A DNA stretch of 64,000 nt, from positions 14,800,308 through 14,864,307 of the forward strand of contig OX453280.1 of assembly GCA_949710005.1 (NCBI GenBank), given 5' to 3'. Position 1 is the first letter of the stretch; the number at the start of each line of letters is the position of its first letter. Position numbers and translations under genes: made by a program. The notes beneath the pieces were generated by a model that saw only the letters and a list, made by a program, of their open reading frames with translations, made no database searches and had not been told where the DNA came from. This document shows, piece after piece, positions 2,221-42,301 of this stretch. The stretch is from Ricordea florida. Taxonomy: Eukaryota > Cnidaria > Anthozoa > Corallimorpharia > Ricordeidae.

Positions 2221-3110
2221 ATGGAAGGCCAAATTTATAAAACGGAGGTCAGAGATAAAAGAGGGGAATCTCAGCTTGATCCAAATGGCATCAGGTCTGA
2301 AAGGGTTATTCGTTTGAAAAGATCCCGTGGGGGAACGCTGTCTTCTATAACACGCTAGAGAGAGATATTGACAAACTTTTCAGTGATCCTTGCAATATTG
2401 AGTTGGTTAAGTCTGAGTATGAAAGGGTCTTAACGCTTTATGCCAGTTTTTGTGAGGTGCGTAAATCGTTCCATAAAGAACTCAGGGATGAAGCTGAAGT
2501 AAATGAGTCAGATCAGTACTTCCAAGAAGTCGATGAAAGTGTTTCCCTGTTTCAACAAAAGGTTTTGGACTGCTTGGCATTAACCTCTTCTAAATTGAAG
2601 TCTGTCGAGATATGCCCCGATGATAGTGCTTCCCAGGCAGGTAGAAGTCTTTCAAACTTAAGTTGAGTCTCCTCAAGAGCAAGTTCGTTGTCGTCTGTAA
2701 GAGCAAAGCAAGCCATGAAACGTGCTGAATTGAAAGCAGAGCTCAAGGCTCAGACCCGTAAACACAGTTTAGAGCAGGAGGAGTTACATTTGAAAATGGA
2801 GAAGGAGAAACTAACTTTGAGAATAGAGTTGGAGAAAGCTAATGCAAGAGGGCAAGCATTGCAAGAATTAGAAGAAGACGGGAAGTCGCATGCCTTTGTG
2901 GAGCATGTTGCTCCTCGCCTTATCTTACCTCCTCCGTTCACTTCCTCTCAACCAGCCACATCACTCAATCCTGAAGTACCTGCATGGAACCCGAGGAGCT
3001 TACCACCATTTCCTAGCCACTCCTACCCAGTTCCAGCAAACCCTATTCCTCAAGCAAACGTGTCTGAGAGTGCAGCATCAGTTAAAGCTGAAGACATGCC
3101 AAGTACTATT
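2221..3110 (+). pseudogene. BEL-1 gag, N-terminal half (broken)
   Basis: This is the start of a BEL/Pao-type gag. It opens with a basic N-terminus at 2221. A frameshift near 2350 and an in-frame TGA at 2664-2666 follow, after which the frame reads on through a long charged coiled coil (about 2700-2890, rich in K, E, L and R) and a proline/serine-rich linker (about 2920-3100). Coiled coil then Pro-rich linker then a DUF1759-like capsid region is the usual order in animal BEL/Pao gags, and the capsid part lies at 41804-42301. The half ends exactly at the 7-bp direct repeat 3104-3110 that borders the 38.7-kb insert. With its lesions it cannot make a functional product. Confidence 0.75.
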
Positions 3111-3137
3111 AGGCCTACTCTGGGACCCAAAGTCGCC
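3111..3137. repeat. Left TIR of the 38.7-kb segment
   Basis: A 27-bp sequence that is the exact reverse complement of 41777-41803. It begins with the palindrome AGGCCT. The adjacent direct repeat is TACTATT (3104-3110). Confidence 0.85.
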
Positions 3138-3235
3138 ATAACTTTAGGCGACTTAAAGCGACTTTAGGCGATTTAAGCTTACTTTGCCCAGAATTTATGG
3201 CGATTTTGGGCGACTTTAGGCAATTTTAGGTGACC
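3133..3235. repeat. Left subterminal GGCGACTTTAGGCGATTT array
   Basis: A degenerate array of about 10-11-bp units alternating GGCGACTTTA and GGCGATTTTG-like sequences. It lies just inside the left TIR, in the same orientation as the array at the right end. Confidence 0.75.
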
Positions 3236-3240
3236 TTCAG

Positions 3241-3670
3241 TGACTTAAGCAGAGAAGCCAAGGTGAAACCAAGTACAGTTGTGGTATATAATGGGAATCC
3301 TCATTGTACACCATAATGCATTGTTCCAGAAAATATCCATACCCTCCCCGTGGAAGATTTTTGGTTTGAATGTTCCATGATGTCGGTATGGAAATTTTCT
3401 GGACCCGCACACTTAACACAGACCAGGTAGCAGGCAAGGCTGTTGCTAAATTGGCCACAGGGCGAGAAGCTGAGGATTTGGGAGCAAAACGTGTAAAATA
3501 CAGTAGGTATTTTGACAAGAAATTTATTATTTCCTTGGGCATTTCAGGGTATACAGCTCGGGTTAGGCAACAGCCTTGGCAAGCAAACTAATATTTCTCT
3601 GTCTCTACTATTGCTGAATGTAAATTCATGATACACAGTGGATACATTAAATGGGAGTGATATGCCATAA
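3241..3670. other. Non-coding stretch with a short palindrome
   Basis: An imperfect inverted repeat pairs 3325-3343 with 3385-3403 (CCAGAAAATATCCATACC against its complement, one mismatch), suggesting a small palindromic repeat. The open frames across it lack any family signature. Confidence 0.4.
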
Positions 3671-3674
3671 ACTG

Positions 3675-3834
3675 TACTTTATTTCCTCAAAATACATACC
3701 TCTCTCAAAAGAGAGAATTGCAATTCCAATGAGATTATTTTAATAATGTTTTATAATAAACTTATATCATTATCATTATAAGCAATTCTCTTCAGATGCC
3801 ATAATGGGTCCCTTTATTTTGAGGAAATACAGTA
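3675..3834. mobile_element. 160-bp MITE with TA-type ends
   Basis: The ends 3675-3694 and 3815-3834 are inverted repeats of about 20 bp (TACTTTATTTCCTCAAAATA against its near-exact complement). The interior is AT-rich and non-coding. TA at both outer ends suggests a Tc1/mariner-superfamily non-autonomous element. Confidence 0.65.
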
Positions 3835-3964
3835 ATTGCCATAGTTACAAAGATATAAACAACATAAATTTACTTACAAAATACTTATGAAAAAAAGTCT
3901 GAAAGGATTGTTTTACATCAGAATAAAATAAAAAGAAAACAATACCAACCATCAATTGTCAATG

Positions 3965-4249
3965 TCACAAATAATAGAAATCACCTACTGTAACACAGGT
4001 TGCCCTATCTATCTTGGCTAGAAACTTTGGTAACAGGCATGCCTTCCTCACATCTTCCAAAAGCCTTTGATCCATTTCTGGCACCCAACCAATTTGCTCC
4101 TCTCCGGTCTTTAACAAGCAAAACACTCCAACCCCGTAGTATGTTCCGTAAGCTAATGTCTCACGCAGTGTCACTTGCGGCTTTTGCGATTCTCTTACAA
4201 TAGCCTGGGCTGCTGGAAACTTGGATGTACCACTTAAATTGAAGCGCAT
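3965..4249 (-). CDS. Unrecognised 94-codon ORF next to BRCT exons
   Basis: The frame starts with a true ATG and runs 94 codons. It lies directly downstream of the BRCT-like exons on the same strand, separated from them by a short inverted-repeat element (4261-4393). A possible splice donor (GTAGGT or GTGATT) near its 3' end fits an internal exon. I do not recognise the sequence. It does not resemble the helix-hairpin-helix region expected next in DNA polymerase lambda, so it may be a different gene or a chance frame. Confidence 0.3.
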   Translation of the reverse strand: MRFNLSGTSKFPAAQAIVRESQKPQVTLRETLAYGTYYGVGVFCLLKTGEEQIGWVPEMDQRLLEDVRKACLLPKFLAKIDRATCVTVGDFYYL

Positions 4250-4260
4250 TTTCCTGGCTT

Positions 4261-4393
4261 ATCCTCGGTGTAAAAACCTGTTACGCTCACGAGTGACGTA
4301 GAACAAAGGAAACAAAGGAGACAAAACAATAGAGACTAGGAAAATAATAGTGAAATAACAAAGAAAAACTTCACAGGTTTTTACACCGAGGAC
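4261..4393. mobile_element. 133-bp inverted-repeat element (MITE-like)
   Basis: The left end TCCTCGGTGTAAAAACCTGT at about 4261-4281 is matched by its inverted copy at about 4373-4393. The interior is AT-rich. It sits at the 3' edge of the second BRCT-gene exon, so it may have interrupted or ended that exon. Target duplication is not clear. Confidence 0.6.
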
Positions 4394-5044
4394 AACCCAT
4401 TTTCCTTGGTTTAGGTTTACAAACCGCTTTACACGCCGGTTCATCCGAAGCACTTCCAATTTCCAGTGGGGAGCGTTTTACCTGCGATTGAGAAAAAAAT
4501 AAAGAACACAAATCAATCGGGTTGTTTGCGATATGTTAGCCCTGAAAGCTGTCACTAATAATTCGGTACATTCCTAAAAGAAAGCCAGAGTTCGTCCGCC
4601 ATTTTCCTTTTGATCGTAAACTTGTTAGCAGGTTTCGCCCAACTTTTCAACATGTCCCACATTCCCGGGTCGTTTTCGTTTGATCCCGTGAAACAAGATT
4701 ACCCGCATTGACCCACTCAGATCAAGGGTGCTCTCGACTTAACTTACCTCGAATTCAGTGGTTGGTATGAGGTTTCCTGCCGCAATACAATCTGATAGCC
4801 AGTCAGTGGTGACAGTGGATACCGTATCTTGCAGTGATGTTAAAAAGGATTCCAGACCACTTTTGAAGCCGACTCCTTGATGGAAAATCAAATGAGTCGT
4901 GTTGTCATCCACGCGGTCACTTATGGCTCCACCAAATCTTTTAATTTTGTCCCGCAGAATTTTCAGTTGTACCTTCCCAATTTTTCTCGTGACAAAAACG
5001 AAAAAAAGACCATGAAAGAAATTATTCGATGCTGAAAAAGACAT
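4393..5044 (-). pseudogene. BRCT-domain gene fragment, DNA polymerase lambda-like
   Basis: Exon 1 (5044-4748) starts with ATG and encodes about 99 residues that read as a BRCT domain: a hydrophobic start, the GKVQLKILRDKIKRFGG helix and glycine turn, a THLIFHQG strand, and the WLSDCI segment carrying the conserved tryptophan. The order and spacing resemble the N-terminal BRCT of the family-X repair polymerases lambda and mu. It ends at a strong donor (GTAAGT at 4747). Exon 2 begins after a good acceptor (polypyrimidine tract plus CGCAG, exon edge 4481) and keeps the frame for about 30 residues of Ser/Pro/Lys-rich linker until the 4261-4393 element. No 8-kDa, palm or finger domain follows, so this is a 5' gene fragment, either captured by the large insert or the remains of a host locus. 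The assignment to polymerase lambda rests on the BRCT only. Confidence 0.55.
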
Positions 5045-5495
5045 ATTTCAGAAGAACTCAGAAATGATAACAATTGGCGCAACGTTTTTTCACAGGTCGA
5101 AGGGAACAAGAGAGTCGATTTACAGTCAAACGCCTCAAACCGTAGCCACCCGACTAAGTTTTTGACATCTTTTTGACAAGTTTTTTATTGTAGTTTGATG
5201 GCTTCCGGTCGCACAACGGTTTATACGAACCATATGTGAAACGTTTCGTTTCAACCGGTTTTACAAACTCAGAAGACTTGACATTGGTTGTGTTTTCACG
5301 ACAGCGCTTGTCTCGCTTAACATTCCTGAAGGTGCTTTGTTTACAGACTCCGTTAAGCGACTTAAAAATGATAGGTGTTTTCACGAGTAAGATTAAATTT
5401 CATCTTACAGTAATTTGAGTGGACCACGCGCGCGAATTAATCAATTTGAATAATATGGCGGGAGATTCAAACGAGGCTCGCTTGTTCGTCCTTCT
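5045..5495. other. Non-coding stretch upstream of the BRCT exon
   Basis: No gene is visible. It would hold the promoter of the BRCT gene if that gene is still expressed. I see no TATA box that I would defend. Confidence 0.35.
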
Positions 5496-5499
5496 TCTT

Positions 5500-5998
5500 T
5501 TAATCCCGTTTTATATGCGCTTAGTTTTCTTTCGACGAAGGATCAGAGGCTGAGATTGCTTGCACTAAGAGGCAGGAGAAGAGTAATAGAAGCTTACTTT
5601 TATCATCCTCGGAGAAAGATCTGCCGCAGAAGGAAAGTTGCGTGGGTTCTGGAAAGGCCACAATTTTGGTTTAAGAATCTGGTTTAAAACCAATACACAG
5701 ACAACATTTGGCAAGAACGTTTCCGAATCTCGAGACAGACCTTCCAGTTTGTCTGCAATTTGGTTGGACCGCATTTAGTTCGACAAGACACAAACATGAG
5801 ACGTGCCATTCCGGTGGAGAAGCGAGTAGCAGTTGCTTTGTGGCGGCTTGCAACAGGAAACTCATACCGAACTACGGGACTTGTTTTCGGAGTTGGAAGA
5901 TGCACTGCGCTCAAATTAGAAGATGAATTTTGCTCAGCACTTCTGACGACCGCTAAAGGTTATATTGGTGGTTTTCACATGGCACGTGATAAAAAATA
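5500..5998 (+). pseudogene. Harbinger/PIF transposase N-terminal remnant
   Basis: The reading frame (with one stop near 5685) shows the N-terminal segment typical of HARBI1-like transposases: an RPQFWF block, then IWQERFRISRQTF, then a VPVEKR-like segment leading into VALWRLATGNSYRTTG and the FGVG helix, which form the helix-turn-helix-like part ahead of the DDE domain. The frame ends at 5998 before any DDE catalytic residue, so only about the first 130-150 residues remain. It is unrelated in position to the complete Harbinger at 42836-47536. Confidence 0.75.
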
Positions 5999-6125
5999 AA
6001 ATCGAAAACACTCAACAGACGAACTCAAGAATCTGGCATATGATAGATTTCTACCATGTAAAACACCTTGCAAAGAATTAGATCTGTGTAGTTTTTCATG
6101 CATGAAATATTCGGATGAATGTTTC

Positions 6126-6258
6126 TGTCGAGTTATTTAGGCTTACAATAGTCTTCAGTGAACAACACGTGTTTACTTCAAGACGCCATCTTTTAATAAC
6201 CAACATGCATCTCGCACTTAACCAACTTGAACAATATTTTATGTAAGCTAACACAACA
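6126..6258 (-). repeat. Gypsy-1 3' LTR
   Basis: 133 bp with TG...CA ends on the minus strand, preceded on that strand by the polypurine tract. Confidence 0.95.
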
Positions 6259-6349
6259 TCTCCCCCCATTGTTCAAGAGTATCTAGGGAACGAGCTGAGC
6301 ATGACAAGTCCGATAAACAATATATAGAATCTTACGACCTAGGGTCATC

Positions 6350-9300
6350 TCAGACTAAACCTAGATTCTCTCTAACTTTAAACGATGGTTTTATAATTCT
6401 CTTAGGTCTAGTAGCAAGAATGGGTGTTACAGGGGGTATTTGAATTTCTTCCTTTGTAACGGGAATGTCCTTCCGAACAAGTGTTGCCTTTTTGTCTTCA
6501 GCGTGAACTTGGTTCCCCTTTGGTGTCATTCGCACAAATTGGTCCTGCTGATTTGGCAGTGGAGTAAGGTGAATACGGTTTCTTCTTATCGTGCTGGTTG
6601 GTGTTTCAACTTTATACGACCGAGGTGTTGATGCTGCTTCAATAACTTTTCCTGACCGCTGGAGGTCCTTGACGAAAACCTCAGTACCCGGTGCAATTAA
6701 AGGCAAGGGCTTGGCTTTGTGCCTGGTATTGAACACTGTTTTCTGCTTTAATTTGCTCATACTTTCTCGTGCACGCAGGTTATCTAGGTCAGGCCACTGT
6801 GGGTTCAGCTGGGTGTGGAATAACGGAACGCTGTTCCTTATCTGCCTGCCCATCAGCAACTGGGCAGGAGAGAACTGGCATGCCAGTGGTGTTGAGCGAT
6901 AGGCTAGTAATGCCTTAGCTGGGTCTTTTTCCTTTGTTAGAAGACTCTTCACAGTTCTAACTCCCCGCTCAACTTATCCATTTGCTTGGGGAAATCGAGG
7001 ACTACTTGTGTTATGCTTGAATCCCCATTCCTTAGCAAAGTAAGAGAATTCTACACTGTCAAACTAAGGACCATTGTCAGATCGCACTTGCTCTGGGATC
7101 CCGTGTCTTGCAAATACCGACTTAAGTGCTCTAATGACCTCACTTGACTTTGTTGTCTTCTGCATAGCTGCTACTTCCACGTATCTTGAAAAGTAGTCTA
7201 TAACAATAAGGTAGTCAACACCTTTCAGCTCGAAGAGGTCTGTGGCTACGATTTGCCAGGGACGGTCAGGTAAAGGTGTTGTGATGAGCGGTTCAGGCTT
7301 GTTGTCCCTTTCAAGAGCGCAAACTCTGCATTGTTGCACCAGATCCTGGATTTCTCGGCTGAGTCCTGGCCACCAAACAGAGTTTTTGGCCCGGTCACGG
7401 CATTTAGTGATTCCCTGGTGTCCTTCATGGATCTTATCCAGTATCTCAAGACGCATGGAAGAAGGAATCACGATCCTGGATGCTTTGAGCAGAATGTTCT
7501 GCACCACAGACAGTTCACCTCTGCTTGACCAATAAGGTTTTACTGCATCGTTTAATGAATGCTTGTCAGGCCATCCCTCATAAAAGTACGCTTTGATCTG
7601 CCTGCAGACAGGATCCTCCTCCTGAGTTTCCATGATCTGCTGTAACCGTGCGTCTGAGGCAGACAGTGATGAGATCACACTGCCAATGTGTGCATTCATT
7701 TCGTCATCGTCAATTGTTGACTTCACTGTTTGGCTTCTGGGTTGAAGTCTTGAAAGCGCATCGGCTATGTACATCTTCTTTCCAGGAACATGCTTGATCT
7801 CCTTGAAGTGGAATCTCATTAGTCGTATTCTAAATCTTTGAATTCTTGGTGGAAGTTGATCCAGTGTGTGAGTACTCAGGAGTGGCACCAATGGTTTATG
7901 GTCTGTTTCCACAGAGATTGATTTTCCCACAATGTACTCCTAGGATCGTTCGCATGCCCATGTGAGCGCTAGGGCCTCTTTTTCGATTTGTGCATATCTG
8001 GTTTCTGTGGGCGTCATCGCTCGCGATATGAATGAGACTGGTCGCCAGGAGTTGTCCGGTTGGAGTTGAAGAATTACCCCACCTAGGCCAAAGGATGAAG
8101 CATCAGCTGCCACTTTGGTTTCCTTGTTTGGATCGTACAGAGCCAGTACTGGAGCTAGTGTGAGGTCAGATTTGATCTGCTTAAATGCTTTCTGTTACTC
8201 ACTTCCCCATGTCCATTGGTTCCCTTTGTGAAGAAGGTCTCTAATGCTCTTTGTCTTGTCAGCGAGGTGCTCGGAAAACTTGCTTAGTTGGTTCACCATG
8301 CCAAGAAATGTCCTTACTTCTTGCACGTTCCGAGGTGGCGGTAGGTCTGCAATTGCTTGCAGCCTTTCAGGATCTGCCTCAATTCCGCTGAAGCTTATAA
8401 CGTGTCCAAGGAACTTGACTCTGTCTGTGCTGAACTGGCATTTTTCTAGGTTGAGTGTCACACCAGCTTCAACTAGACGCTTGAGTACTGCTTCTAACCT
8501 CTGATCATGTTCAGTCTCGTCTTTGCCATGGACTAAAACGTCATCTATGTTGCACTCCACGCCCTCTAATCCCTGGAGGATCTTACTCATACTCTTCTGG
8601 AACTTCTCAGAGCCAGAACTGATTCCAAAGGGCAACACATTGAAACAGAAACGGCCCCATGGAGTGATAAATGTTGTCAGTGGTCTTGATTCCCGCGCTA
8701 GCTTTATCTGCCAGAATCCTGAGTTCGCGTCAATTTTAGAGAACACTCTAGAACCTGCCAATCTTCTGAGAGTTGTGTCTACTGCTGGAAGAGGATGGTT
8801 CTCCCTCTTGACGTACTCATTCAGCTTGCTCAGGTCGACGCAGACCCTGACTTTGCCATTGCTCTTGGGGGTCACCACCATGGGAGCGCACCAATCGGTG
8901 GGTTGGTCCACTCTGGATATGACTCCTGTCTCCAACATCCTGTCTAACTCTTCTTTAGTTTTCTGATACAAAGGGAAGGGTACTTTCCTTGGAACTGACA
9001 CTTGGAAAGGTTTAGCATCTTCTTTGAGTGTGATACGATAACTATCCTTCATAACACCTAGTCCTTTGAACAACTTGGGGTGCTTGTCTGCTACTTTACT
9101 CTTGTATTCATCACTGCTTAGGCTGTCAAGTCTGCTTATCAGCTTTAGAATTTCAGCTGGCTTTCTTCCTTGCAAAGGTCGTTCCAAATCTTCTATTACA
9201 TACACTTGCTCCTCTGCAATCTTATCTTGCACTTGCAACTTTGCTGTAAAATTTCCTAGACAGTTCAGTTTCTGTTTACACGGACCCATGAGTAGCCTGG

Positions 9301-9576
9301 TGGTCCTGCTAAGTGATGGAACTGGTTGCAAACTGTGATATAGGCTAGGTGGAATTACTGTTACATCCGCACCGGTATCCAATTTAAATTCTGCTTGCAG
9401 TCTATTTAATGAAACTTTAACTTTCCATGAATCTCCTGTACTTCCTTGGGCAGCAGATAATTCAGTGAGTTCACCTAGGAAGAACTCTCCTTCTTCTTGT
9501 CTCCCAGGAAAATTCACTTCACCCCACTCTCTTGTCTGATTGAGATCTGCAGGCCTTTGCCCAATGTCCTACTTTG
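6350..9576 (-). pseudogene. Gypsy-1 pol (protease, RT, RNase H, integrase) with nonsense codons
   Basis: A single frame runs from about 9576 to 6350, interrupted only by about four stop codons (near 8195, 7930, 7064 and 6975) and no frameshift. In order it shows an aspartic protease motif (LDTGADVTV), a reverse transcriptase with an IDDVL active-site box, an RNase H region with a TDHKPL block, an integrase zinc-binding segment (H-x4-H...C-x2-C), the catalytic D...D (a SDNGP box, with a stop directly after it) and the VERG glutamate region, then a C-terminal chromatin/DNA-binding tail. The pieces are full length compared with other Gypsy pols. The stops would end translation within RNase H, so the copy is likely dead unless complemented. 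Confidence 0.9.
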
Positions 9577-10455
9577 GAGCACTTGTTACATTTTGATTCT
9601 CTGGCTGGACATAGTCTCTTTGGGTGTAGTTGACCCATGCACCTTGAACATTGTACTTCAGGAGTCGTCCCATTTTTTAGACTTGGGTGGCTTCTTTTTC
9701 GTCTTCACATCATCTTTAGAATCTTTTCCCTTTTCTTTGGACAAACGGTCAACATGAGCTGCTGTTGGGTCGGATTTGGTTTCCTGTAGGAACGTTTGCT
9801 GCTTTTTAACTGTCTCCGACTGCCTGGTTTTTGTAATTGCTTTCTCTAAAGTCAGCTTGGAATCCAGTTGAAGCTGTTCAGAGAGCTTCTTGTCTTTTAT
9901 CCCTACCACGATTCTATCTCGGATGAGATCGTCTCTTAGTGTTTCAAATTCGCAGTATTCAGCAAGACAATACAAATCTGTTATGAAATTATCCACATAC
10001 TCGCCATCTTGTTGACATCTCAGGTTGAACTTGGCTCGTTCAAATATTACGTTTCTCTTTACCCCAAAATGAGCTTCAAACTTGCCTTTCACCACGTTGT
10101 ACTGCTTTGCTTCTTCAGTTGTCAGGCCGAATGACATGACGATGTCGTTAGCTTCTTCGCCCATCGAATAAATCAAAGTATTCACTTGGGTCTCGCCGTC
10201 CTTTTGTTCAAGTCCAGTCGCTTTTCGAAATCGTTCGAAACGCTTGATCCAACGGGACCATTCTTCGGGTTTGAAGTTGAACTTTTCAGGTGGTGGAACT
10301 TGGTAACTCACCATGGGTAGCTGTTGAATCATGGGTTGTGGTACAGCTGCGGCAACTTGTGGTTGTGCGGCGTGAGCGCCAGCTTCGTTCGGCTCTTCAA
10401 CTACTTGAAGTTGTTCCGATTGAATTCCGGCCTCGTGTGCACCTTGGTCTGCCAT
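9520..10455 (-). pseudogene. Gypsy-1 gag with one frameshift before the zinc knuckles
   Basis: An ATG at 10455 opens about 265 codons of gag matrix/capsid: a Gln/Ala/Pro-rich N-terminus, a W-x2-W capsid helix and the LIRDRIVVGI segment common to this gag family. The frame closes at 9658, but the next frame immediately carries two CCHC-like knuckles (CSRC...C and CNKCSKVGHWAKAC) at about 9650-9550. A single-base indel near 9660 therefore separates capsid from nucleocapsid. The knuckle frame overlaps the start of pol. Confidence 0.8.
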
Positions 10456-10518
10456 ATGTCCGTTTGGTTTGATTTTTCTTCAGTCTAGAGGCTATTGGGA
10501 ATCCCACCGCTGCCACCA

Positions 10519-10651
10519 TGTCGAGTTATTTAGGCTTACAATAGTCTTCATTGAACAACACGTGTGTACTTCAAGACGCCATCTTTTAATAACCAACATG
10601 CATCTCGCACTTAACCAACTTGAACAATATTTCATGTAAGCTAACACAACA
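10519..10651 (-). repeat. Gypsy-1 5' LTR
   Basis: 133 bp, about 98% identical to 6126-6258, followed on the minus strand by the TGGTGGCAGCGG primer-binding site. Confidence 0.95.
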
Positions 10652-11006: not shown

Positions 11007-14000
11007 TTATCTGATCTCTCTTATGATCCTTTCATACATTCCGCCCCACCACGGTGACTTAGAAAGGTTGAACTGCCATGTTATTTCTTGCTCTGCAAGA
11101 AAGTCTTGGAGGCGTTCACTTCTCCTTATTTTCTTGATCCAGTGAGTGGTTGCTCTGAACGTTGCAGCATTGTCTGATACAATCCGTTCCGGTCTGGTTC
11201 TCCTTGTGATGAAGGCGTTAAGCTTCCTTTGGAATTCTTCAGCTGTCTGTGACCTTGTTACCTCCAAGTGCACAGCTCTCGATGTAGCACAAGTGAAAAG
11301 TAACACGTAGGTTTTTCCTTCTTCTTTCTTGTTTATCTTGTACCTCAATGGTCCAGCAAAGTCTACTCCAGTATGTTGAAAGGGTCGACTTGCTTCTGTA
11401 CGGAATTCCGGCAGCGGAGCGGTTGCTGTGGCTCCGTACGGGCTTGTGGCGAATACCTTGCATACGTTACATTCTCGTATCTGTTTCTTCACTAGTGATC
11501 TCAGTCGTGGTATCCACCAGTTCTTCCTTATGGCAGCCATTGTGCTGGCTACTCCCATGTGATTCACTCTCTCATGTGCGTGTTGGATCAGCTTTTGGAC
11601 TAAAAGACTATCTTCGAGATAAGTTGGTGTGTACTTTGGGATTCTTCCTTCGCTCTTTAATATGTTTGTCTGTTTGTCCTTGACAAGCCGGAAACCTGGT
11701 TTCTCTAGATCTTCTGGTATGTCTCTTTGCACTCTCCTCACCCAGTATTCCTTTGCTTGCTGAATTTCGTCTGTAAACAACGGGCCTGATCTTCGCTTCA
11801 GTTTGCGGGACTTGGACAGGTTGTTATGGATAAACCTTAGTGTCCATGCTGTTATTCTGAGCGTGTTCCAGTAAGGCTTGCGCTTCAGCAACTCGTCCCA
11901 CTCATCTAGTACTTTCTCATTTGTGAACGAACTGACTTCTACTGTCGGCTTTTGCTCCTCGGAGATCTCTGGTGTTGATTTCAACTTGGGTTGTTCTGGC
12001 CACTCCCTTTCATTCAGCAGCCATTCAGGTCCTGTGAACCAGCTGACCTTTTTCATCTTTTCCAGCGAAGCTCCTCTGCTTCCAAGATCAGCAACATTTT
12101 CCCGTGTTGGACAGTATTTCCAAAGTGCTCCGGTTTCCTCTGTGATCTCTGCAATCCTCCTTACTCTGTTTGCAACGAACACCTTCCAGGGTTTTTCAGG
12201 TTTTGTTATCCAATATAACGCTACCATACTATCCATCCATATTGTTACGGATGCAATCGGCCATCCCTTTAATGTTCGACATACGTTCTTTACCATGTTG
12301 GCAGCCATGTGTCCTGCTATCAGCTCTAGTCTTGCAATCGTAGTGTTCCGTTTGGAAATTCTAGACTTTGAAGTTAGAAGCCCTCTAACAGTTTCATTGT
12401 CCTGTTCCGCCACGACTATTGTCACCGTAGAACAGGCTAGTTTACTTGCGTCTGCAAACTGATGAATATGAATGGCTCGCATCTCAGCACCGCTTTGAAT
12501 AATACTTCTGGGGACCTGAACGTTCACTAACTGTTTTATCCACATTCTCCACTGTCTCTCGAGGGAGGTGGAAACCTCTGCCTCCCATTGCCTTTTCTCG
12601 TCACAAACCTCTCTGTAGATTCGTTTCCCTTCAGCTAGCGTAGGTGAAGTTATTCCTATGGGATCATAGATACTCCCGAGATGACTCAAAATAGATTTCT
12701 TTGTGACTTTCTTGTCTTCTTGGAAAGTAGGAAATGGTATTTCTATGGTATCTTCTTTCTTGTCCCATCTCAGTCCTAGTATCTTGCTTTGGTCTTGCAT
12801 GTTTTCACTCTCAAGTTCTCTGATATTTGACTCCCATTTGTGTACTGGAAACGTCGCGCTTTCCATGATCTCGGTTGCCTTCGTCTTGAAGGTTTGTAAC
12901 TCGCTAACGTCGAATCCCGTTTTCATCAAATTGTCTACGTAAGTATTGTCTCTCAAAGCCTTTACTGTCTCACTGAGTTCTGGTGGTTGCTGATCATAAA
13001 GATGGTTGAGTGTAGCGCCCAGAATGAATGGGCTCGCTTCTGCACCAAAGGGCACTCTTGTTAACCTTAAGTGCTCTTCTTTGTTGTTGATGTTGAAAAG
13101 TAACCGAAAGGCATCTCTGTCCTCTTCCTTGATTTCGATCTGTAGAAATGCTTTCTGAAGGTCTGCTAGCAGCAAGTTGGGCGACATTCTAGCTCGTATC
13201 ATTATGTCCCACAACAATGGTTGTAATGACGGTCCCGTGTACATGCATTCATTGATGCTGTTGGCCAGTGGATGTGGCTTAGCACTAGCATCAAAAACCA
13301 TCCTCACCTTTGTGGTAGAGGCATCTTGTCCTACTACTGGTTTGTGAGGCAAGTAGAAGATCTTCTCACCTGTTGGTTGATCTAAGATACTTTGTTCAAG
13401 TTGTTCCTCAACTATCTCTTTGTAACTTGTCTGTAACTGTTCGCTTTGTCTCAACTTTCTCTCGACATTCAGCAGTTGCTTCCTGCATGGCCTTTCATTT
13501 GTTTCTGTTATCTCAGCTCCTGGTATCCATGGAATGTTCACTCTGTACCGTCCATCTTGTTTTCTTGTCAAGATTTCCTTGAATTCACAGTAACCAACTT
13601 GTTGGTCGTCTTCTCCTCTGTCCTCTACTCCAAGTACGTCCAGACTATACAGTCTTTCATAATCGTTCACTTCCTTTACGTACATGGCTTCATTGTTCAC
13701 ATACTCCCCTCCGTGGATCACCCAGCCAAACGTGGTTCCTTCCACTATTGGCTCGTCAGATTTACCTTTGTACACTTCCTCGGTTCTGATTTTGCAGTAG
13801 GTGTGGTCACCTAGGATCATGTGGATGGGATATTTCTCGTTGACCCTCGTGTAAAACTGTTTGTCTTTTGTGTGTTCGTATTTAGACTTCAAGAGATTCA
13901 TATTTGGTCTGGTCACTGTAGTGAAGCTTGACATTCTTGTGCCTGCAACTTCAATATTCTCTCTAGTTTTCCCATCTACTGAATCTAGATTCAAGTTAAA

Positions 14001-15543
14001 GATTGGCATTGACTGTTCCTTTGTCCCGTTCACTGTGACTACTTGTCGAGTTTCATAGCGCAAAGGAATCAACTTTAACCTTTTGACTGCTTCATTGGAT
14101 ATGAAGTTTCTACCTGATCCCGTGTCTAAACATGCCCACAGTGTTATCCCTTGAACCTTAACAGGGATTATGGCAGGAAATGACTTTTCTTCCGAAGCCG
14201 CTGGGGTGTATCCATTCAGCTCTGCTTGATCATTGACCTTAGATGCTGAGTTATTACACAAGCTTGTATGATGCTTTGTTTTACAGTTGTAACACCCCCT
14301 GCTCCGACACCTATTTGCACTGTGCCCTGGTCTGCCACAGTTAAAGCAAAGCTTGTTCTCCACAAAGAACCTCTTCCTCTTTTCTTGGGTGCTATATGTA
14401 TCACATGCGTCGCTCCAGTGTTGGTTCTTACAGAAAATGCATGTAGGACTTGGTTTCTCTTTAGGGGCTTGACTACTCTCATTGTGCTTTTGGGTAAACC
14501 AATGTCTCTCTCTCTTCTGGGGTTCCCCTTGTCCCTTCCCATCACTGGATTTATTCCTCCTCAACCATTTCTGTAAGTTGTCTATGAGTTGTTCCATGTC
14601 CCATTTCTCCCAGCTTTCATCTGTTCTCACAAGGTCAGGCTTCAAATTAGGTAATTTGTTCAGGGTGGTCATCACAAGTCCCTTTAACATGTCACCTTCC
14701 CCTAGGGTCTGCAAGGCATCGTAATTTTTGCTTATCTTTTCATAGAATTCTTGAATCTTATCATAGTTTGTTCCCTCAATTACTGGCAATGTTATGATCT
14801 CATCCATGTGCGCATTTATGACTAGTTGTGTCTGACCGTATTCCTTTTTCAAGCGCTCCCACGCGGTCTTATATCCAGCTGAACTTGGCTTAAGATTAGA
14901 AATCTTACTTCTTACCTTGGGGGCCAGCATTTCCAGTAAATATCCGAACTTTTCTTGGTCAGAAATTGGCTTACTGTCGACTTGAGTCGTAAACATATTC
15001 TCAAACCTTACCCAATCAGCGGCGGTCCCTTTGAAAGCAGTGATGGTTAGCTTCGGTAGTTTGGCTTGCGTTGATTCTACCATCTTTTGCATCTTCAGCT
15101 TCTCTTCTGTCATTTTTAATTCAGCTTCCATTTTTTCTTGCCACAACTGTCTTTCTCGCTGAATTTTTTCATGTTGTAGGCGCTCTTCTCTCTCACGTTG
15201 AATTTCGTCGTCTGTTTCCCTTTGATGGATCTTGAGTATTTCTGCTAGTCGCTTTCTCTTTTAACCACTCGGTATATTTGGATTTGGTATCTTTATTCCA
15301 TTGTCGGACTAACTTCGAAGATACTCCTCGATCTATTTTAGATTCTTGTACTTGGGCTATCAGATCAGACAGCTTTTCGGTGATCTTTGACACTCGTCGC
15401 TCGACGACTTTCATCTCTTCGTAGTCCTTGGCTTCGATCAGCTCATCGATTTCCTCCAGGTAAAATCCAAGTTTATCGATTTCCTTCCGAATGTCGTCCT
15501 CCAAAACTTTCTCATTCTCTAGAATCTTTGATTTATCGCCCAT
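11007..15543 (-). pseudogene. BEL-3, BEL/Pao gag-pol truncated in integrase
   Basis: An ATG at 15543 starts a charged coiled-coil gag N-terminus (frame closes at 15193). One frameshift near 15255 leads into a 1379+ codon frame holding the DUF1759-like capsid, zinc knuckles (CIFC...C and [14 protein letters not shown], about 14440-14270), an aspartic protease ([10 protein letters not shown]), a BEL-type RT (FDASAK block, YVDN active-site box), RNase H (DSMVALYW region) and integrase (HHCC, then DFAGP, SDNAATF and the YERI glutamate). The homology stops at about 11012, straight after the catalytic glutamate, where a TGA/TAA-rich unrelated sequence begins. The integrase C-terminal domain and 3' LTR are missing. 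Apart from one frameshift and the truncation it is remarkably open. Confidence 0.9.
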
Positions 15544-15693
15544 GATGAATCAGATAAATTGTTGTTGTCACCTCGTGGTCTTGTGTAATGTAGGTTGAAT
15601 GAAATTCCCAAATCTTCTCTCGTCGGTGGAATTTCCTTTGTTAAACTCTCTCTGGTTGTATCCTGGTCTCGGCAACCTCTAAGTATTACTTGT
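15544..15693. other. BEL-3 leader, LTR border not resolved
   Basis: This short stretch upstream of the gag start should hold the primer-binding site and the edge of the 5' LTR. Without a 3' LTR copy the borders cannot be set. Confidence 0.4.
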
Positions 15694-27480: not shown

Positions 27481-27488
27481 TGGCCTGT

Positions 27489-27686: not shown

Positions 27687-27700
27687 TGTGACTGTATTAC

Positions 27701-28363: not shown

Positions 28364-28573
28364 TGGTGTCAGGAGTTTAATGAACCACCAAGCCCCCTCG
28401 TTTGGCGCTGGTATTCCATAACAGCAACGATTTTGTCACGGAAAGTTCGCTGTTGCAGTATTTCAACGCTCGTTCAGTGGAGCACGTGGTCGACTCGAAT
28501 CGCCATATTGGATCTTGTCTGCGAAAGGAAAGCATCTGAACTGTGAGTACCGAAGCATTTCACCCGTTTTAAC

Positions 28574-31500
28574 ATGCCGTTTTATCATATACCACCACTA
28601 TTGCCTATGAATGTCAAAGATGACGTATCGACAAATTGGAAAATGTTCAAAGAAGCTTGGCACTATTACGTAACCGCTACCGAACTTGACAAGAAACCTA
28701 AGCCAGTACAGGCTGGAGCGTTATGTAGTGTTATGGGTATGGACTGTGTAAAGGTTATGAACAACCTTACGACTTTATCTGCTGATGATAAGAAAGATCC
28801 GGAAAAAATCCTTGATGCCCAGACCAGCCATTTCATGCCTCAAAAACGGTATCCAGTCGTTTCGTACCCACGACCAGTTCGTACCCAGACGATTCGTACC
28901 CAAATGTAGACGATTCGTACCCAATGTCGGATGGTTCGTACCCAACCCTCTGGACGATTCGTACCATGGTCAACATTCATAACAAAAAGCATCTTTGAGA
29001 ACGATTAAAGATCAAGATTAACCGAAGTTACCTTGAATGATGTTGACTGTTTATCCTCCTTGATTCATAAGTGCATTTTGACTAAGAAAACCGGCTTAAG
29101 CACGTACAACACAAGCTTTACAAATTATTTTTGTGATCAGCTACTCGATTGTTGTGTGCGACATGTCGTTAAAGATGTAACGAGTAGGATACAAGTAAAC
29201 CCCTTTTGTTTATTTTAAAAAAGCATATTTAAGTGAAGTCAAAGCGAAGCGAAGTCAATTCACTGATTGATTGGATTTAACTTTAGATTGAACAGGTTCC
29301 CGTTAAATCCGAGGGCGCTCAACACAAGTCAATAGCCTTTTTTTTTCGATTCTTAGTCGCTCGTGAGCGGGACAAGCCAATTTACAAATTGTAAAGAAAG
29401 TTTGACTTCCCAAACAGTACCTGTTTATTAGTTGCTCGGGTAAGGTTATTGCGATTTTTTTCCGTGTTGTCATTATTCTTCTATTGTTTATACAATGACA
29501 GCTAATTAGTGCCCCGCGCAAGGTAGTTGTGATTTTTTTTTCTTTAACAAATCAGTTTATTTTAACAAAAGGAGTAAACAACATACATAACTATAAAAAG
29601 ATACTGTTTGACACAAAACAACTTGGTAATAGGATGGGTACGAAACGTCTTAATTTGTTGGGTTCGAATCGTCCGCGTTGGGTACGAATCGTCTGGGTAC
29701 GAACTGGTCGTGGGTACGAAACGACTGGTAAGCTCAAAAACATTTGTTGTTTGAACGAGTCAAATTTGGCTTTGCTAATCCAGCAGAACATGAAACCATT
29801 GATCAGTGCGTAGTGAGATTACGCCAGCTTGCTGAGTCATGTGAATTTGAGAGTCTTTGTGAGAGCTTGATTCGTGACCGATTAGTTATTGGTACCAGAG
29901 ACTCTTCGACTCGTGATCGGCTTCTCAGGGAGCGCCCTGTTCCAAGCTTGGCTAGGTGTATTGAAGCTCTTCGTGCCAGTGAATTATCCAGAGTCCATAA
30001 AGAGCAGTTTAAGGATGTGGCTGACCCAGCTCCTACAATCCATGCATCAGACAAGCGTAGGTTAAAAGAGAAAAAGAAAGGAAGTGGTGAACATAGCCAT
30101 GGAAACACAAGAAGTTCTAGCAAGTCAAGCAAAGGAAATTCAAAGAGTTCATGCAAGTTTTGTGGTAGAGACCACCCATTTGACAGAGCTAAATGTCTAG
30201 CCTCGGGAAAGACGTGTCACAAGTGTGGTAAACAAGGCCACTTTGCTGTGAAATGCCATAACAAGATGCAGACGCCAGTTAAAGCTACAAATAAAGTTCA
30301 CCAGTCAAGTGGAATCCATGTGGAATCAGCAGAGGATGGTGGTGAATCAGATGATTCTATCTTCATCGCAGAGCGTGTTGGAGTTGTCAGCAGAAATGTG
30401 AGCAGATCTACCTTTATGGTTCCCCTCACCTTCCATACAGAGTACAGTCCTACAGTGAAAGCTCAGTTAGATACTGGAGCAACGTGCAGTGCAATGTCGT
30501 ACACAGATTTGTTGAATATTTTACAGAGTGGAGAAGTCCAGTTGGATCCGCCTGGAGGCAAGATTAGACTATATGATGGTAGTATGGTTACTCCATTGGG
30601 ATCCTTCACATTTACAGTTAGTCAGAACAGTGGTTCTAAATGCAAGATAAAGTTTGACATCTTGGAGAATGCACCTTGGCCCATTGTCGACGGTGAGACG
30701 TGCATCAAACAAGGCTGGATTTCCTTGAGCATGGTCCAGTCCGTTCATTCAGTGAACAGCAAACAATATGAACCACTGGCGCTTGATGAGCTCATGAAAG
30801 AGTATGAAGATGTGTTCACGGGTTTGGGTTGCCTGCCAGGAGAATATCACATTAAAGTTGATACAAACATCGCACCAGTGCAGCATGTTCCTCGCCGTGT
30901 ACCTGTGCCACTGAAAGCAAAGCTGAAAGCAAAGATTGAAGAGATGGAGAAGCAAGGAATAATTGTCAAGGAAACTGGCCCAACAGAGTGGATTAGCAGT
31001 CTTGTAGCAGTGCAGAAGCCCGGAAAGTTAAGAGTGTGCATTGACCCGCGAGATCTAAACAAAGCTATTAAGAGGCCAAAGTATCAGATGCCAACAGTTG
31101 ATGAGGTTCTGCCGAAGCTTGCCAAAGCTAAGGTGTTTACAGTGCTGGATGCCAAAGATGGTTTCTATCAAGTTAAGCTCGACAAGGAAAGCTCACTTCT
31201 TACTACATTCTGGACCCCATTTGGAGGATATCGTTATCTGCGAATGCCTCAAGGAATCAGCAGTGCACCAGAAGAGTGCACCAGAAGTCATTGCAGATGA
31301 TATCTTGTGTTATGGCAGTGGAGAAACTATGGAGGAAGCTTTAGCAGATCATGATCAGAACTTAGTGAACTTGCTCAAGCGTGCCCGCAAAGTCAATTTG
31401 AAGCTTAACAAGAAGAAGTTGAGACTGCGACTAGACCAAGTAACATACATGGGACAGTTGTTTACGTCCGATGGCCTAAAGCCAGACCCCATGAAAGTGG

Positions 31501-32716
31501 AAGCAATTCCAAGCATGCCTCAACCAAATGAAAAAAGGGCAGTCCAGCGTCTCCTAGGATGTGTCAATTATTTGTCCCGATTCATGCCAAGGCTCTCAGA
31601 AGTCACCTAGGACCTGATGCTTGTACGCGTCGAGCACGTGATGTGTTGTTCTGGCCGGGTATGACAAGTCAAATAAAGGACCTCGTCCAAAAGTGTGCAG
31701 TTTGTAATGACTTTCAAGCCAGACAGCAGAAAGAACCATTGATGACGCACAAGATCCCAGACACCCCATGGTTAAGAGTTGGTCAAGATCTTTTCACACT
31801 TGGAAATGAGACCTATTTGGAGACTGTAGATTATTACAGTGACTATTTTGAATTAGACCTGTTGCAAGATACGACTGCCGAATCAGTGATCAATGCAACA
31901 AAGGCCCACTTTGCCCGCCATGGCATTGCTGACATGGTTACAGACAATGGTCCCCAGTACTCAAGTGCACAGTTTGCTGCGTTCGCTCGCGTATGGGAAT
32001 TTCAACACACCACCTCCTCACCCTTACATAGTCAGAGTAATGGCAAAGTTGAGTCTGCAGTGAAGATTTCTAAGACTCTCTTAAAGAAGGCAAAGAAGGA
32101 CAAGAAGGATGTGCAGATGGCTCTTCTTGAATGGCGAAACACGCCTGACAGCAACAGCTTGAGTCCTGTTAAGAAGCTCATGTCAAGAAGAACCCGAACC
32201 ACTATCCCTACAGTCGAAGCATTACTTAGGCCAGAAGTTGCAGAAGGCGTGCCTGAAAACATCAAACTGAAGAGACAGCAAGCTAAAGCTGCCTATGACA
32301 AGCATGCAAGACCATTACCAGAACTCCAAGTAGGAGAACCAGTACGTCTTCAACCAGTTAACCCAAAAGCACCATGGGAGAGAGGGTCATGTGTAGCAAA
32401 AGTCGGACCACGTTCCTACCTTATTGAAACAGAGAGCGGAAACCTGTACAGACGGAACAGAAAATTTGTTCGCCAAGATACTAGTCAAGAACTGAAGCGA
32501 CTGCCCACCACCAAGAGCAGCTCCATTGACCAGAGCTCATCTAAGTACAAGTCAGCAGACAAACCACCAAATGACATGAGACCAAGCCCAACTACGAAAC
32601 AGTCTGAATCTACCATGACTGATGATAGGAACAGCTTGCAACCACCTCAGTCTCTAGTTACAAGGAGTGGCAGAGTCAGTGTTCGTCCTTCCAAGTTCAA
32701 GGATTACGTGACATAG
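28574..32716 (+). pseudogene. Gypsy-3 gag-pol, broken
   Basis: An ATG at 28574 starts gag. The frame is interrupted by the 28848-29732 element and resumes after 29741 in the same frame. It continues through two zinc knuckles (CKFCGRDHPFDRAKC and CHKCGKQGHFAVKC, about 30150-30255), protease (LDTGATCS, about 30468) and RT up to about 31275. A deletion next to the duplicated word AGTGCACCAGAAG (31262-31289) removes the palm segment before the ADDIL box and shifts the frame. A second deletion at about 31608 joins the end of RT directly to the integrase zinc-binding region, removing connection and RNase H domains. The integrase (DLFT, TDNGPQYS, and a K where the glutamate-bearing GEVER-type motif reads NGKVESAV) reads on to 32716. 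Gag and pol share one frame here, unlike Gypsy-1 and Gypsy-4. Confidence 0.9.
28848..29732. mobile_element. 885-bp MULE-like non-autonomous element in Gypsy-3 gag
   Basis: Long inverted ends (about 50 bp identical, 28852-28902 against 29678-29728) begin CCAGTCGTTTCGTACCCACG. Inside them a motif GACGATTCGTACCCAA recurs about three times on each side. The insert is bordered by CTCAAAAAC at 28839-28847 and 29733-29741, a 9-bp duplication. Removing the element and one copy restores the gag frame. A 9-bp duplication with long TIRs is typical of Mutator-like elements. No transposase is encoded. Confidence 0.9.
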
Positions 32717-32862
32717 GTTTATGCCTTATGAACTTAAATGCAGTCCCTGAACTTGAGACATTTCTAGTTACCTTATTAGAGTTTATTTGTGTTTACCCTT
32801 TCGATAGACTAGACAGTTTCTAAGTTTTCCACGTTGATTTTATTTTACTGGAAAAAGGGAGA

Positions 32863-32990
32863 TGTTATATGTGATACTACATGAAGTAGTTTGTAGATTG
32901 CCCATAATTGAGAGATTAAAAGACAACATGGCTTCGTCTAGAAGTGTGCCTTTCTTCTTGTATAAATAGCTTAGTCTCAAGTGTATAACA
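32863..32990 (+). repeat. Gypsy-3 3' LTR
   Basis: 128 bp, matching 28232-28363 except for a 4-bp deletion and a few substitutions. Confidence 0.95.
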
Positions 32991-39171: not shown

Positions 39172-40520
39172 TAATAAGTGACATTATATTCAATTAAATA
39201 TTTTTATAAAACTTAGAACAAGCATATGACCCTTAAGTGTTTCAGTTCCCTTTATCTGTGAGATAGAACCATGCTGGGTTTTTTTTATCGTTGAACCAGA
39301 AGCAGAGATACTCTGCTAAACGCCATGCAAGAGAGAAACCTCGGCTCGTATGGTAAGGCAGAGAAGGTTTTTTGCCCATGATTATGAATTATAGGATTGA
39401 AGGAAACCCTGAAGTTCAGTGATAGATTCTTGAGTGCTTAATAATTTTATGATTTCATTTAATAATTCAATTTGAGTGGCATCCATAACTCAATTTAATT
39501 ATAGCATGACAAAAAAGAAAAACATTTACATTTATTTTGCTTCCATGCAGGCTATATACTGGTTCCATATACTGGAACCTCGATATCAAGCTAAATTAAG
39601 TAAAAAATGCTAGCGGAACTGTCTAAATGTGTTTTTATATAGATAGTCATATCTAAACCCTTTTGCATACATTTTACCATACCTTGGAGTAAACATGTAT
39701 TTTACCGAGGTGTTCATTTTAACACGAAAATGACAAGAGTTGTGTCCTGCATTTCCCAGTAGCGTGTACAAATCTTTTAAATACATTTACGCAAATGGAA
39801 TGGTTAATTTCATCAGGAATAGAATACAGTACATTGATAATTTGTATTTTATGTAGAATGATGACTTTGTAGTTAGAAAGACCGTACTAATGGCAAACGA
39901 AAGTTTGGACAAAAATCATAGCGAGTTAACCGACCTCGAAACTAAACTATAGTTAAAAACGTTTGTGAATTCCTTCGCAATATTTTAGAATGCTTTGACA
40001 GTTTCAAAGTGAAATGAAAGTACTAAACGGGAGCCCCGCTTTTAGGCTTGGCTAAATCTATATATTATTTAACTATATGAAGCGATTGTAAATTAATGAT
40101 TACGATTGTATTGGTATTTATTTATTGGAATCGTATTTATTTAGGTTAAAGCTGGTTAACGTCATAGTTGTATTGTTCTGTGTAACCTAGCAGCTCATCC
40201 TCTGCTCGACCACTTCTGCCATAGCACCATGGCTTTGAAATCTCTTTGTAATTCGCATACTCTGTTATTAACTAACTTAGTGAGTCAAATCGGCTCTTGT
40301 CACTTGTTCGAATTTAACATCGAACATGATAGATCAGGTGCCAACTATATGATATATTAAGCTGGTCACTCTTTTTCTGGTGGATAAATATGAAAATTTA
40401 GGTTATGAAATAAATCATCAAATCTGACACTAAAGTACATGTAGGTCATTTGAACACAATCTAATCTTCAAATTGATTGCTTGTGTGTTCTAACTTTATT
40501 TTCCATAATTTTTGTTTCAG
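39172..40520. other. AT-rich non-coding stretch
   Basis: Nothing recognised on either strand over about 1.3 kb. Confidence 0.45.
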
Positions 40521-40678
40521 TGGTGTCTAGAGTATGGAATATAAAAACATTCTCCTCAAAAAATTACAAAATGATTCATGTAAACAGCAGGATGTCAACA
40601 GCTGAGTTCATAGGCAAAGTAGCTCATGCAAGACGAGCAATGATTTTTGTACTTGTTCGGTCCTCTAACTTCAATTAA
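40521..40678 (+). CDS. Possible terminal exon of an unknown gene
   Basis: A strong acceptor (AATTTTTGTTTCAG) is followed by 52 open codons to TAA. The peptide has a basic and hydrophobic C-terminal part (AHARRAMIFVLVRSS). No upstream exon was identified and no family is recognised. Confidence 0.3.
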
Positions 40679-40717
40679 TCTGTATCGATTTGGCTGCATG
40701 TGTGGTCTTTGACTTAC

Positions 40718-40907
40718 ATCTGAGGATGCCATGAAGTGTAGAGAAGTTGTTGGTGGACAAACTAGACGAGATGATCACTTTTTCTTCACATTTTTGTGTT
40801 GGTAAGCTTATGATTTGCTCCTGAACAGGTATAAAAGAACCTTGGTAGTGTTTCAGTTTTGAGCGAACAGTCATGTAACTCGCAGTAGATTTGCTTACCA
40901 TAATAAA
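40718..40907 (-). CDS. Possible internal exon of an unknown gene
   Basis: The minus strand is open for 190 nt between an acceptor (AAGTGCAG, edge 40907) and a strong donor (GTAAGT, edge 40718). The peptide is about 63 residues, rich in Ser, Lys and Thr (KSTASYMTVRSKLKHY...SLSTNNFSTLHG). It lies tail to tail with the candidate exon 40521-40678. Not recognised. Confidence 0.35.
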
Positions 40908-41082
40908 CTGCACTTACTGGCGTACTTGGGTCCACGAATTTCTGAATGTAACACTATGGAGTAGTTGCTAAAATACCTGAAAAGATTATTGGTAATTATG
41001 TCTTTTATTCTTGTGATCTGTATTAATATAATATTTAATACATTTGTAATAAGCTATATTATGCAGAGGAGTTTGATGCTAT

Positions 41083-41253
41083 TACAGTTGAACCCCTATT
41101 AAGTGGCCACCCCCTATTAGGTGGCTAGTTATCAAAGCCCCAACGAGGGTTCTTCTATTGTTTTTCACTTCTATTAAGCGATCAGCCCTATTAAGCGGCC
41201 ACTATCCATATCATTTCCCTGAGGGTGGCCGCTGAATAAGGGGTTCAACTGTA
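41083..41253. mobile_element. 171-bp pogo/mariner-type MITE
   Basis: The ends are inverted (TACAGTTGAACCCC at 41083-41096 and its complement at 41240-41253), with further inner matches around GTGGCCACC. TA at each outer end fits a Tc1/mariner target. Inside are several degenerate TATTAAGCGGCC repeats. Confidence 0.85.
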
Positions 41254-41699
41254 CTTATGACTGTTGAGGGTTAATGGGGTAGTGAATGGGTGTGAAGGGG
41301 AAATTGTTTTGTAGAAAAGAGAATTGGGAGACAACTTCCTTTTATGCTTAATATAGATCTGTCACCTGCATTACTTTTCATATTAGGGACCTACAGATCA
41401 GAATACAAGATTAGGTATGAGTATGACTTTTAAGACCTAGTGCTCATGCTTTAGATTATTGAGTGTCAAACCAATCTTGTTTCTAGAGATTCCTTCCTTA
41501 CTGGTCAACATCAGGGAGGAGAAACACCTCTGGAAACATGACTGGTTTGAAAAGTTGAAAGTCAGTCATAGTCATACTTAATCTTGTACTCTGTTCTGAA
41601 GGTCCCTATTATAATGGATGGTTTGGAACAACACCATAAGGACGCCTGAGGATTTTTGTAACAAAGTCAGCCTAGAAAGTTTATCATATTGGGTTAATT

Positions 41700-41780
41700 A
41701 AGGGCGTCAGGCCAAAAGCGACTTCAGGCGATTTTAGGCAACTTTAGGCAATTTTGGGCGACTTTAGGCGATTTTGGGCG
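41700..41780. repeat. Right subterminal GGCGACTTTAGGCGATTT array
   Basis: About seven units of the same 10-11-bp motif as at 3133-3235, running directly into the right TIR. The orientation relative to the plus strand equals that of the left array, so the two arrays are direct, not inverted, copies. Confidence 0.8.
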
Positions 41781-41803
41781 ACTTTGGGTCCCAGAGTAGG
41801 CCT
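41777..41803. repeat. Right TIR of the 38.7-kb segment
   Basis: The exact reverse complement of 3111-3137, followed directly by TACTATT (41804-41810), the second copy of the target-site duplication. Confidence 0.85.
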
Positions 41804-42301
41804 TACTATTCCCTCCAGAAGAAATGATGATATTATGATGCGGCAAAATGAGATAATGCAAGTAATTATTTCTCAGCAGCAGAAGGCAACTTTACCTAAA
41901 AGAAGCATCCCTATCTTCAGTGGTGACCCAGTAGAATATTGCTCATTTATGAGGGCCTTTGAGGCTGGAATAGAAAGCAAAGAAACTGACAACATCAGTA
42001 GGCTGTATTATCTGGAACAGCACACTTCAGGAAAGGCCAAAAAATTAGTAAGAAGCTGTCAGCACATGGCACCAAACGAGGGTTACAAGAAAGCTAAAGA
42101 GGTATTGAAGGAAAGGTTTGGCCAAGAGCACAAACTTGCTGTGGCGTACGTGAATCGAGTTCGTTCCATTGGTTTCATGAAAGCAGAAGATGTTGAAGCA
42201 CTTGAGAACTTTGCAGTTGTGCTGGCAACATGTAAAAACTCTTTGAAGGCAATTGGGTATCTCAGCCGGATAGAAAACCCGGATGTTATGAAGAAGATTA
42301 T
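41804..42301 (+). pseudogene. BEL-1 gag, capsid half
   Basis: An uninterrupted frame of about 165 codons, continuous in phase with the half ending at 3110. It holds the DUF1759-like capsid region of BEL/Pao gags: LPKRSIPIFSGDPVEY, a RAFEAGI helix, the YLEQHTSGKAKKLV stretch and the LKERFGQ motif. It is cut at 42302 by the LTR of BEL-2. The rest of BEL-1 is not visible in the window. Confidence 0.85.

Follow-up and report, generated by a model that had tools for sequence, protein, structure and literature searches.

How does a 38.7-kb segment bounded by 27-bp terminal inverted repeats (TIRs) come to interrupt the gag gene of a retrotransposon, and did it ever move as a unit of that size? A locus in the corallimorpharian Ricordea florida raises this question. 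The window, that is, the whole stretch of DNA that was analysed, has a length of 64,000 nucleotides and corresponds to positions 14800308-14864307 of contig C9 in a host genome of 538 Mb and 48 contigs, in which the contigs C2, C8, C11 and C16 carry some of the other copies named below. A preliminary description of the window had noted the TIRs, a flanking target duplication and a BEL/Pao gag split in frame, and had proposed that the insert is either a giant cargo transposon or a miniature inverted-repeat transposable element (MITE) inflated by later insertions. We find that the insertion is real and that its size is misleading: most likely, the insert is a Pack-type TIR element, a non-autonomous transposon carrying a gene fragment, that has been enlarged by nested insertions.

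A transposon-type insertion splits a BEL/Pao gag

The ends of the insert and the interrupted open reading frame (ORF) comprise the following features, given in window coordinates.

2667..3110, + strand: left part of the BEL/Pao gag ORF, ending in the first copy of the target duplication
3104..3110, + strand: target site duplication TACTATT, left copy
3111..3137, + strand: left TIR, 27 bp, perfect
3138..3249, + strand: left subterminal decamer array (GCGAYTTTRG), identical in orientation to the right array
41718..41785, + strand: right subterminal decamer array
41777..41803, - strand: right TIR
41804..41810, + strand: target site duplication TACTATT, right copy
41811..42301, + strand: right part of the BEL/Pao gag (DUF1759), truncated at 42302 by a copy of a long terminal repeat (LTR)

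The two TIRs match at 27 of 27 positions, TACTATT lies flush against each outer edge, and the distance between the outer ends, at positions 14803418 and 14842110 of C9, is 38,693 bp, which bears out the preliminary description on all three points. The real window contains 198 perfect inverted 20-mers, other inverted repeats included, compared with none in any of five simple shuffles, and two matches to the TIR 18-mer were found with up to three mismatches where 0.03 are expected. The gag is indeed split in frame. When 100 nt from each side are joined computationally with a single copy of the 7-mer, the frame stays open. A search with only the right half gave 17 gag relatives, of which two, P0122 and P0123, clearly align to the left half too, in order and within one ORF. 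In P0122, residues 1-65 correspond to window 2898-3101 and residues 68-196 to window 41793-42179, the right part carrying the DUF1759 domain (PF03564). The remaining 15 relatives gave no left-half match, or one at chance level only, and many of them are too short on that side; the uninterrupted target, which had been proposed to be sought as empty sites in other BEL copies, is thus seen at the protein level, in two of 17 relatives. Taken together, the flush duplication, the open joined frame and the relatives that run through the junction show that an ordinary transposon-type insertion split the gag.

The named protein relatives are anthozoan, with Actinostola and Porites among the best 120 of 2,405 listed and Pocillopora in the gag search. 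In a viral contig collection, seven stretches fitted a pattern for gag relatives and none was confirmed, and the TIR and array patterns gave no match in either the viral or the genome contig collection. A search for peptides encoded by the TIR yielded no candidate either, over a length range that left out the gag proteins usable as a control, so that this result carries no weight. The same gag is broken a second time at its right end, where window 42302-42564 is 98% identical to 52930-53192 and is probably an LTR; with the three relatives tried, no continuation of the gag was found between 42302 and 64000.

The TIR defines a family of cut-and-paste elements

With up to two mismatches allowed, the TIR occurs at 82 ends genome-wide, compared with none for a reversed control pattern, and in a search with the left end, the best 40 of 103 candidates, which were scored, yielded 66 matches. 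The preliminary description had called for a search for other copies, short or long, and had named their absence as a finding that would count against its account; the 82 ends dispose of that objection. Nine copies were read at both ends, most of the 82 ends lying outside this set, and their lengths are 38,693 (the window), 15,530, 2,888, 2,801, 813, 266, 217, 155 and 145 bp, the range from 145 to 266 bp representing short MITEs with the same TIR. Eight of the nine have flush, exact duplications, of 7 bp in two (the window and C2) and of 6 bp in six, and the ninth, the 266-bp copy L007, has none; the short copies L006 and L008 have identical flanks and are therefore not independent. Inverted ends combined with a near-fixed duplication length in eight of nine copies mark a family of cut-and-paste TIR transposons. 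The second-longest member, on C2 (G000:C2:19230296-19245825; L026, L040 and L027), is 15.5 kb long and is flanked by the flush 7-bp duplication TTGTCAT, its right TIR having four mismatches in 18.

Sister copies expose an ordinary-sized core

Comparison of the window with copies on C8, C11 and C16 separates the parts native to the element from the rest.

3111..5285, + strand: left native part of the transposon, matched by C8 to 4789 and by C11 and C16 to 5286, in pieces 91-100% identical
40066..41803, + strand: right native part of the transposon, of which 40624-41804 is 96% identical in C8 and 40066-40216 is 95% identical in C11
4255..4399, no strand assigned: 145-bp inverted-repeat element flanked by TTTTCC repeats; C8, C11 and C16 lack it at this site

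C8 carries a complete copy of 2,888 bp, in which window 3111-4789, lacking the 145-bp element, is linked by 153 bp of other DNA to window 40624-41804. The C11 copy corresponds to window 3114-5286, followed by approximately 1.0 kb that is absent from the window and then by 40066-40216, so that between 5286 and 40066 it has about 1 kb of other DNA versus 34.8 kb in the window. In C16, the left part extends to 5286 but contains an insertion of 14.6 kb, and part of the same 1-kb middle as in C11 follows. No right TIR was found within the 50 kb read in C11 and C16, and C16 also lacks the right native part. The 14.6-kb insertion is flanked by a flush 6-bp repeat, which makes the C16 copy a second inflated one. 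This insertion (L019-L020, G000:C16, about 11406449-11421077) starts with AG, has inverted ends matching over 57 bp once they are offset by one base, and is Maverick/Polinton-like by structure. The middle of the C11 copy that is missing from the window contains an arginine/serine-rich ORF (L014:2821-3327), divergent from the gene fragment described below, which is perhaps the start of a second captured gene.

Position 5286 also lies within a few bases of the edge of a dispersed repeat (5286-5965). A genome search with window 3111-6125, in which the best 40 of 1,931 candidates were scored, listed 51 matches, of which 28, at 22 places and with identities of 75-100%, belong to this repeat and 12 more, at 98-99% identity, begin near 5963. 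In the six copies of the repeat that were compared, the BLAST edges fall at window 5280-5286, C11 reads across the site without the repeat, C16 agrees there, and among the 51 matches listed the left native part is joined to the repeat in the window's own match only. Because of these parts in C8, C11 and C16 and the repeat edge at 5286, the stretch 5286-40066 looks like an addition to an element of approximately 5 kb, the direct test having been made at the left edge.

We consider it likely, then, that a non-autonomous TIR element of approximately 5 kb was inflated in situ by nested insertions accompanied by local deletion. Such an element would have entered the BEL/Pao gag and duplicated 7 bp, mobilised, presumably in trans, by a transposase of its family that would act on the 27-bp TIRs and possibly on the decamer arrays too, and it would already have carried a gene fragment between its ends, like several of its sister copies. 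Later mobile elements (Harbinger-like, Ty3/Gypsy, BEL/Pao and Helitron) would have accumulated inside it from 5286 onwards, in an order that we infer, and about 1 kb of the original middle was probably lost, so that foreign DNA now makes up 34.8 kb of the total of 38.7 kb. Of the two possibilities originally offered, inflation is thus supported by the sister copies, and the starting point was not a MITE but a longer element. A MITE in the sense of a short, homogeneous and gene-free element does not fit, as the sister copies share ~2.2 kb on the left and ~1.7 kb on the right beyond the arrays.

We also rejected a macrotransposon formed by two whole MITEs at the ends, as neither arm contains a second TIR and the C8 copy shows the arms continuing into element DNA. 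For the TIR-specific 18-mer, 16% of windows score as high as the best match inside the left arm and 4.7% as high as that inside the right arm; for the full 27-mer the corresponding values are 0.1% (left), where 12 bases matching the decamer array account for the score, and 3.3% (right). TTAAG at the inner edges of the arrays was discarded as an insertion scar, given that 46% of random pairs of 30-nt edges have some 5-mer in common.

The inner 34.8 kb consists largely of other mobile elements

The DNA between the native parts contains the following elements.

5286..5965, + strand: dispersed repeat, labelled Harbinger-like, forming the left edge of the later insertions; the C11 site is without it
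6126..10651, - strand: Ty3/Gypsy retrotransposon A, with 133-bp LTRs, target duplication GTTTC and an LTR divergence of 0.023
11007..15549, - strand: BEL/Pao element remnant with a long ORF; no LTR pair was found in the window
16231..20433, + strand: Helitron Rep/helicase remnant (DUF6570, Helitron_like_N, PIF1), spread across several frames
28232..32990, + strand: Ty3/Gypsy retrotransposon B, with target duplication CATAG, an LTR divergence of 0.016 and an 876-bp inverted-repeat element inside

The ORF of the 5286-5965 repeat, which by eye we take to resemble the N-terminus of HARBI1, has HTH_23 as its only Pfam match (E 0.046). The 876-bp element (28853-29728) lies within the gag region of Gypsy B and has 51-bp perfect inverted ends and an observed/expected CpG ratio of 1.39. 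Window 33961-34203 is an inverted repeat with 117-bp arms, in which a hairpin (34046-34118) gave a sub-threshold match to mir-133 on both strands that we take to be a chance product of the inverted repeat; over the whole window, no Rfam family reached its gathering threshold and no tRNA was found. No transposase domain was detected among the 148 ORFs of at least 48 residues in the unassigned parts of the insert, a scan that shorter exons would escape. To the right of the insert, window 43007-43741 contains an ORF whose relatives (2,405) carry DDE_Tnp_4 (PF13359) in a precomputed list, that is, a HARBI1-type transposase, and at window 56769-61187 a third Ty3/Gypsy element, its repeat ends being 98% alike, lies inside a second Helitron Rep/helicase gene.

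Weighing the alternatives

Several observations weigh against inflation in place. The 1-kb middle of C11 and C16 was not found in the window, so that simple insertion is insufficient and the account also requires a deletion or replacement. The 5-kb element is not seen whole in any one copy, C8 having a deletion, and the right edge near 40066 is placed from C8, from C11 and from a match of 38 bp in L038. The absence of the inner junction from other copies comes from the best 40 of 1,931 candidates, so that such a copy may have escaped notice. Finally, the observed/expected CpG ratio of the inner stretches 15701-28231 and 40001-41700, which were chosen after the profile had been seen, is 0.39, close to that of the gag (0.40) and lower than that of the arms (0.83, 95% interval 0.43-1.45; inner versus arms p = 0.018). 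On a simple clock, the inner DNA could therefore be older than the insertion, having aged before its arrival. On the other side, the repeat unit of the arms contains a CpG, the region from 33.0 to 35.4 kb is not depleted (0.97), and element families begin with differing CpG content.

This CpG pattern, with inner depletion similar to that of the gag, would suit an alternative in which inflation took place at a donor site and the outer ends then carried the whole 38.7-kb block into the gag. The perfect TIRs and duplication agree with such a history, as does the existence of a second long copy with TIRs and a flush 7-bp duplication, that on C2. TIR elements are also described as moving large cargo: a 28-kb maize macrotransposon excised, leaving a modified 8-bp footprint (PMC9910405), and cargoes of 100-200 kb were moved in artificial constructs (PMC6431247). 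We nevertheless regard transposition of the whole block as improbable. The inner junction at 5286 appears in no further copy among the 51 matches listed, nothing in those matches shows that the 38.7-kb form ever moved, and no donor locus was seen in the genome searches, which were made with the left end, the TIR and window 3111-6125. Late insertion of the two inner Gypsy elements is allowed, but not proved, by their low LTR divergence (0.016 and 0.023).

The replacement of the native middle, which is not just split, speaks for a different mechanism, in which the 1-kb middle was replaced by ectopic DNA copied during repair after a cut or excision. Gap filling has been proposed as the mechanism for single-copy Pack-TIRs in animals (PMC8277862). 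At this locus, however, the left edge lies within a few bases of that of a dispersed repeat, which fits transposition better than gap filling, and two inner LTR elements have 5-bp duplications of their own (GTTTC and CATAG); we give this mechanism little credence. An assembly error joining the gag halves and the block within repeats is very improbable even in so repeat-rich a region, because both TIR ends, the duplications and the native parts fit one family in the expected order and both gag halves match one relative, so that two coordinated misjoins would be required.

A PolX-type BRCT gene fragment in the element

The gene fragment that the approximately 5-kb element would have carried before its inflation lies in the left native part.

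4742..5047, - strand: BRCT-domain exon of a PolX-like gene fragment, with an ATG at 5044 and a GT donor after 4748
3968..4480, - strand: putative exon 2 of this gene fragment, split by the 145-bp inverted-repeat element, with a homologue in the C2 copy

The best solved-structure matches of the BRCT exon are a TdT variant (E 0.00025) and DNA polymerase lambda (E 0.0018); the PolX core motifs gave a single, chance-like match in the insert. C8, C11 and C16 all contain exon 2 as DNA, and C11 and C16 the BRCT exon as well; the 15.5-kb C2 copy has diverged versions of both, its BRCT exon being split over two frames. Between the window and C2, exon 2 has 55% amino acid identity over 92 codons, with a nonsynonymous divergence (dN) of 0.41 and a saturated synonymous divergence (dS) of 2.4, and exon 1 has 47% identity over 47 codons, with dN 0.35 and dS 1.12. 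The close pairs show no clear constraint in dN/dS: for C11, dN and dS are 0.0085 and 0.014 in exon 1 and 0.0135 and 0.0157 in exon 2, and for exon 2 of C8 they are 0.031 and 0.068.

Judged from these alignments, the pattern would fit either a transposon gene long under constraint or the capture of two related host genes. A more specific idea, which we put forward tentatively and think unlikely to be right, is that an anthozoan family of Mutator-like TIR elements carries its own PolX-derived BRCT gene under purifying selection, encoding an accessory protein that might, for example, act on the transposition break.

The presumed mobilising transposase and known systems

A putative transposase remnant occurs in L024, a 2,801-bp copy with the target duplication CAAACT, whose TIRs have one and two mismatches in 18. 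One of its ORFs matches the Mutator-like transposase family PF20700 over residues 97-175 (E 7.9e-9), a fragment; the second ORF has no Pfam match, and the C2 copy has no significant match to the transposase ORFs of L024. We leave the superfamily open, because the L024 fragment is Mutator-like but duplications of 6-7 bp are short for Mutator-like elements (MULEs) and Dada-like in length; on the sequence features at hand, Mutator-like is our best guess.

Among known large elements, Mavericks/Polintons, which are marked by long TIRs, a 6-bp duplication and genes for PolB and capsid, have a length range comparable to that of the insert. The window copy differs from them in its 27-bp TIRs, in a duplication that is not 6 bp and in having no Maverick domain among the ORFs scanned, and the preliminary description was right to set them aside.

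The link to MULEs is the fragment in the TIR-sharing, 2.8-kb L024 copy that matches a Mutator-like transposase; the target duplications of MULEs are given as 8-11 bp (PMC6446971), in contrast to 6-7 bp here. Dada elements have duplications of the same length, 6-7 bp, and target small RNA genes, Dada-U6 and Dada-U1 being without TIRs (PMC3706591), whereas the present family has 27-bp TIRs and its one examined target is a gag. Galileo, of the P superfamily, shares the 7-bp duplication (PMC2775673) and differs from a family with a Mutator-like transposase fragment. The coral MITE group CMITE has TTAA duplications (PMC2872659) and was rejected, its core scoring only 22 in the window. The closest likeness is to the Pack-TIRs, of which 370 have been reported across 100 animal genomes (PMC8277862), and to Pack-MULEs: these too are non-autonomous, carry a gene fragment with a putative intron, occur in several copies and are presumably mobilised in trans. 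The window copy differs in being far longer through later insertions, and capture of its BRCT fragment from a host gene is putative.

Implications

A huge span from TIR to TIR with a perfect target duplication need not be a giant transposon; in this genome, sister copies expose a core of ordinary size. The family looks like a cnidarian case of TIR elements that carry gene fragments. Its most interesting part is the PolX-type BRCT fragment with its diverged homologue in the C2 copy, a recurrence that makes the use of repair-protein domains by transposons a testable question.

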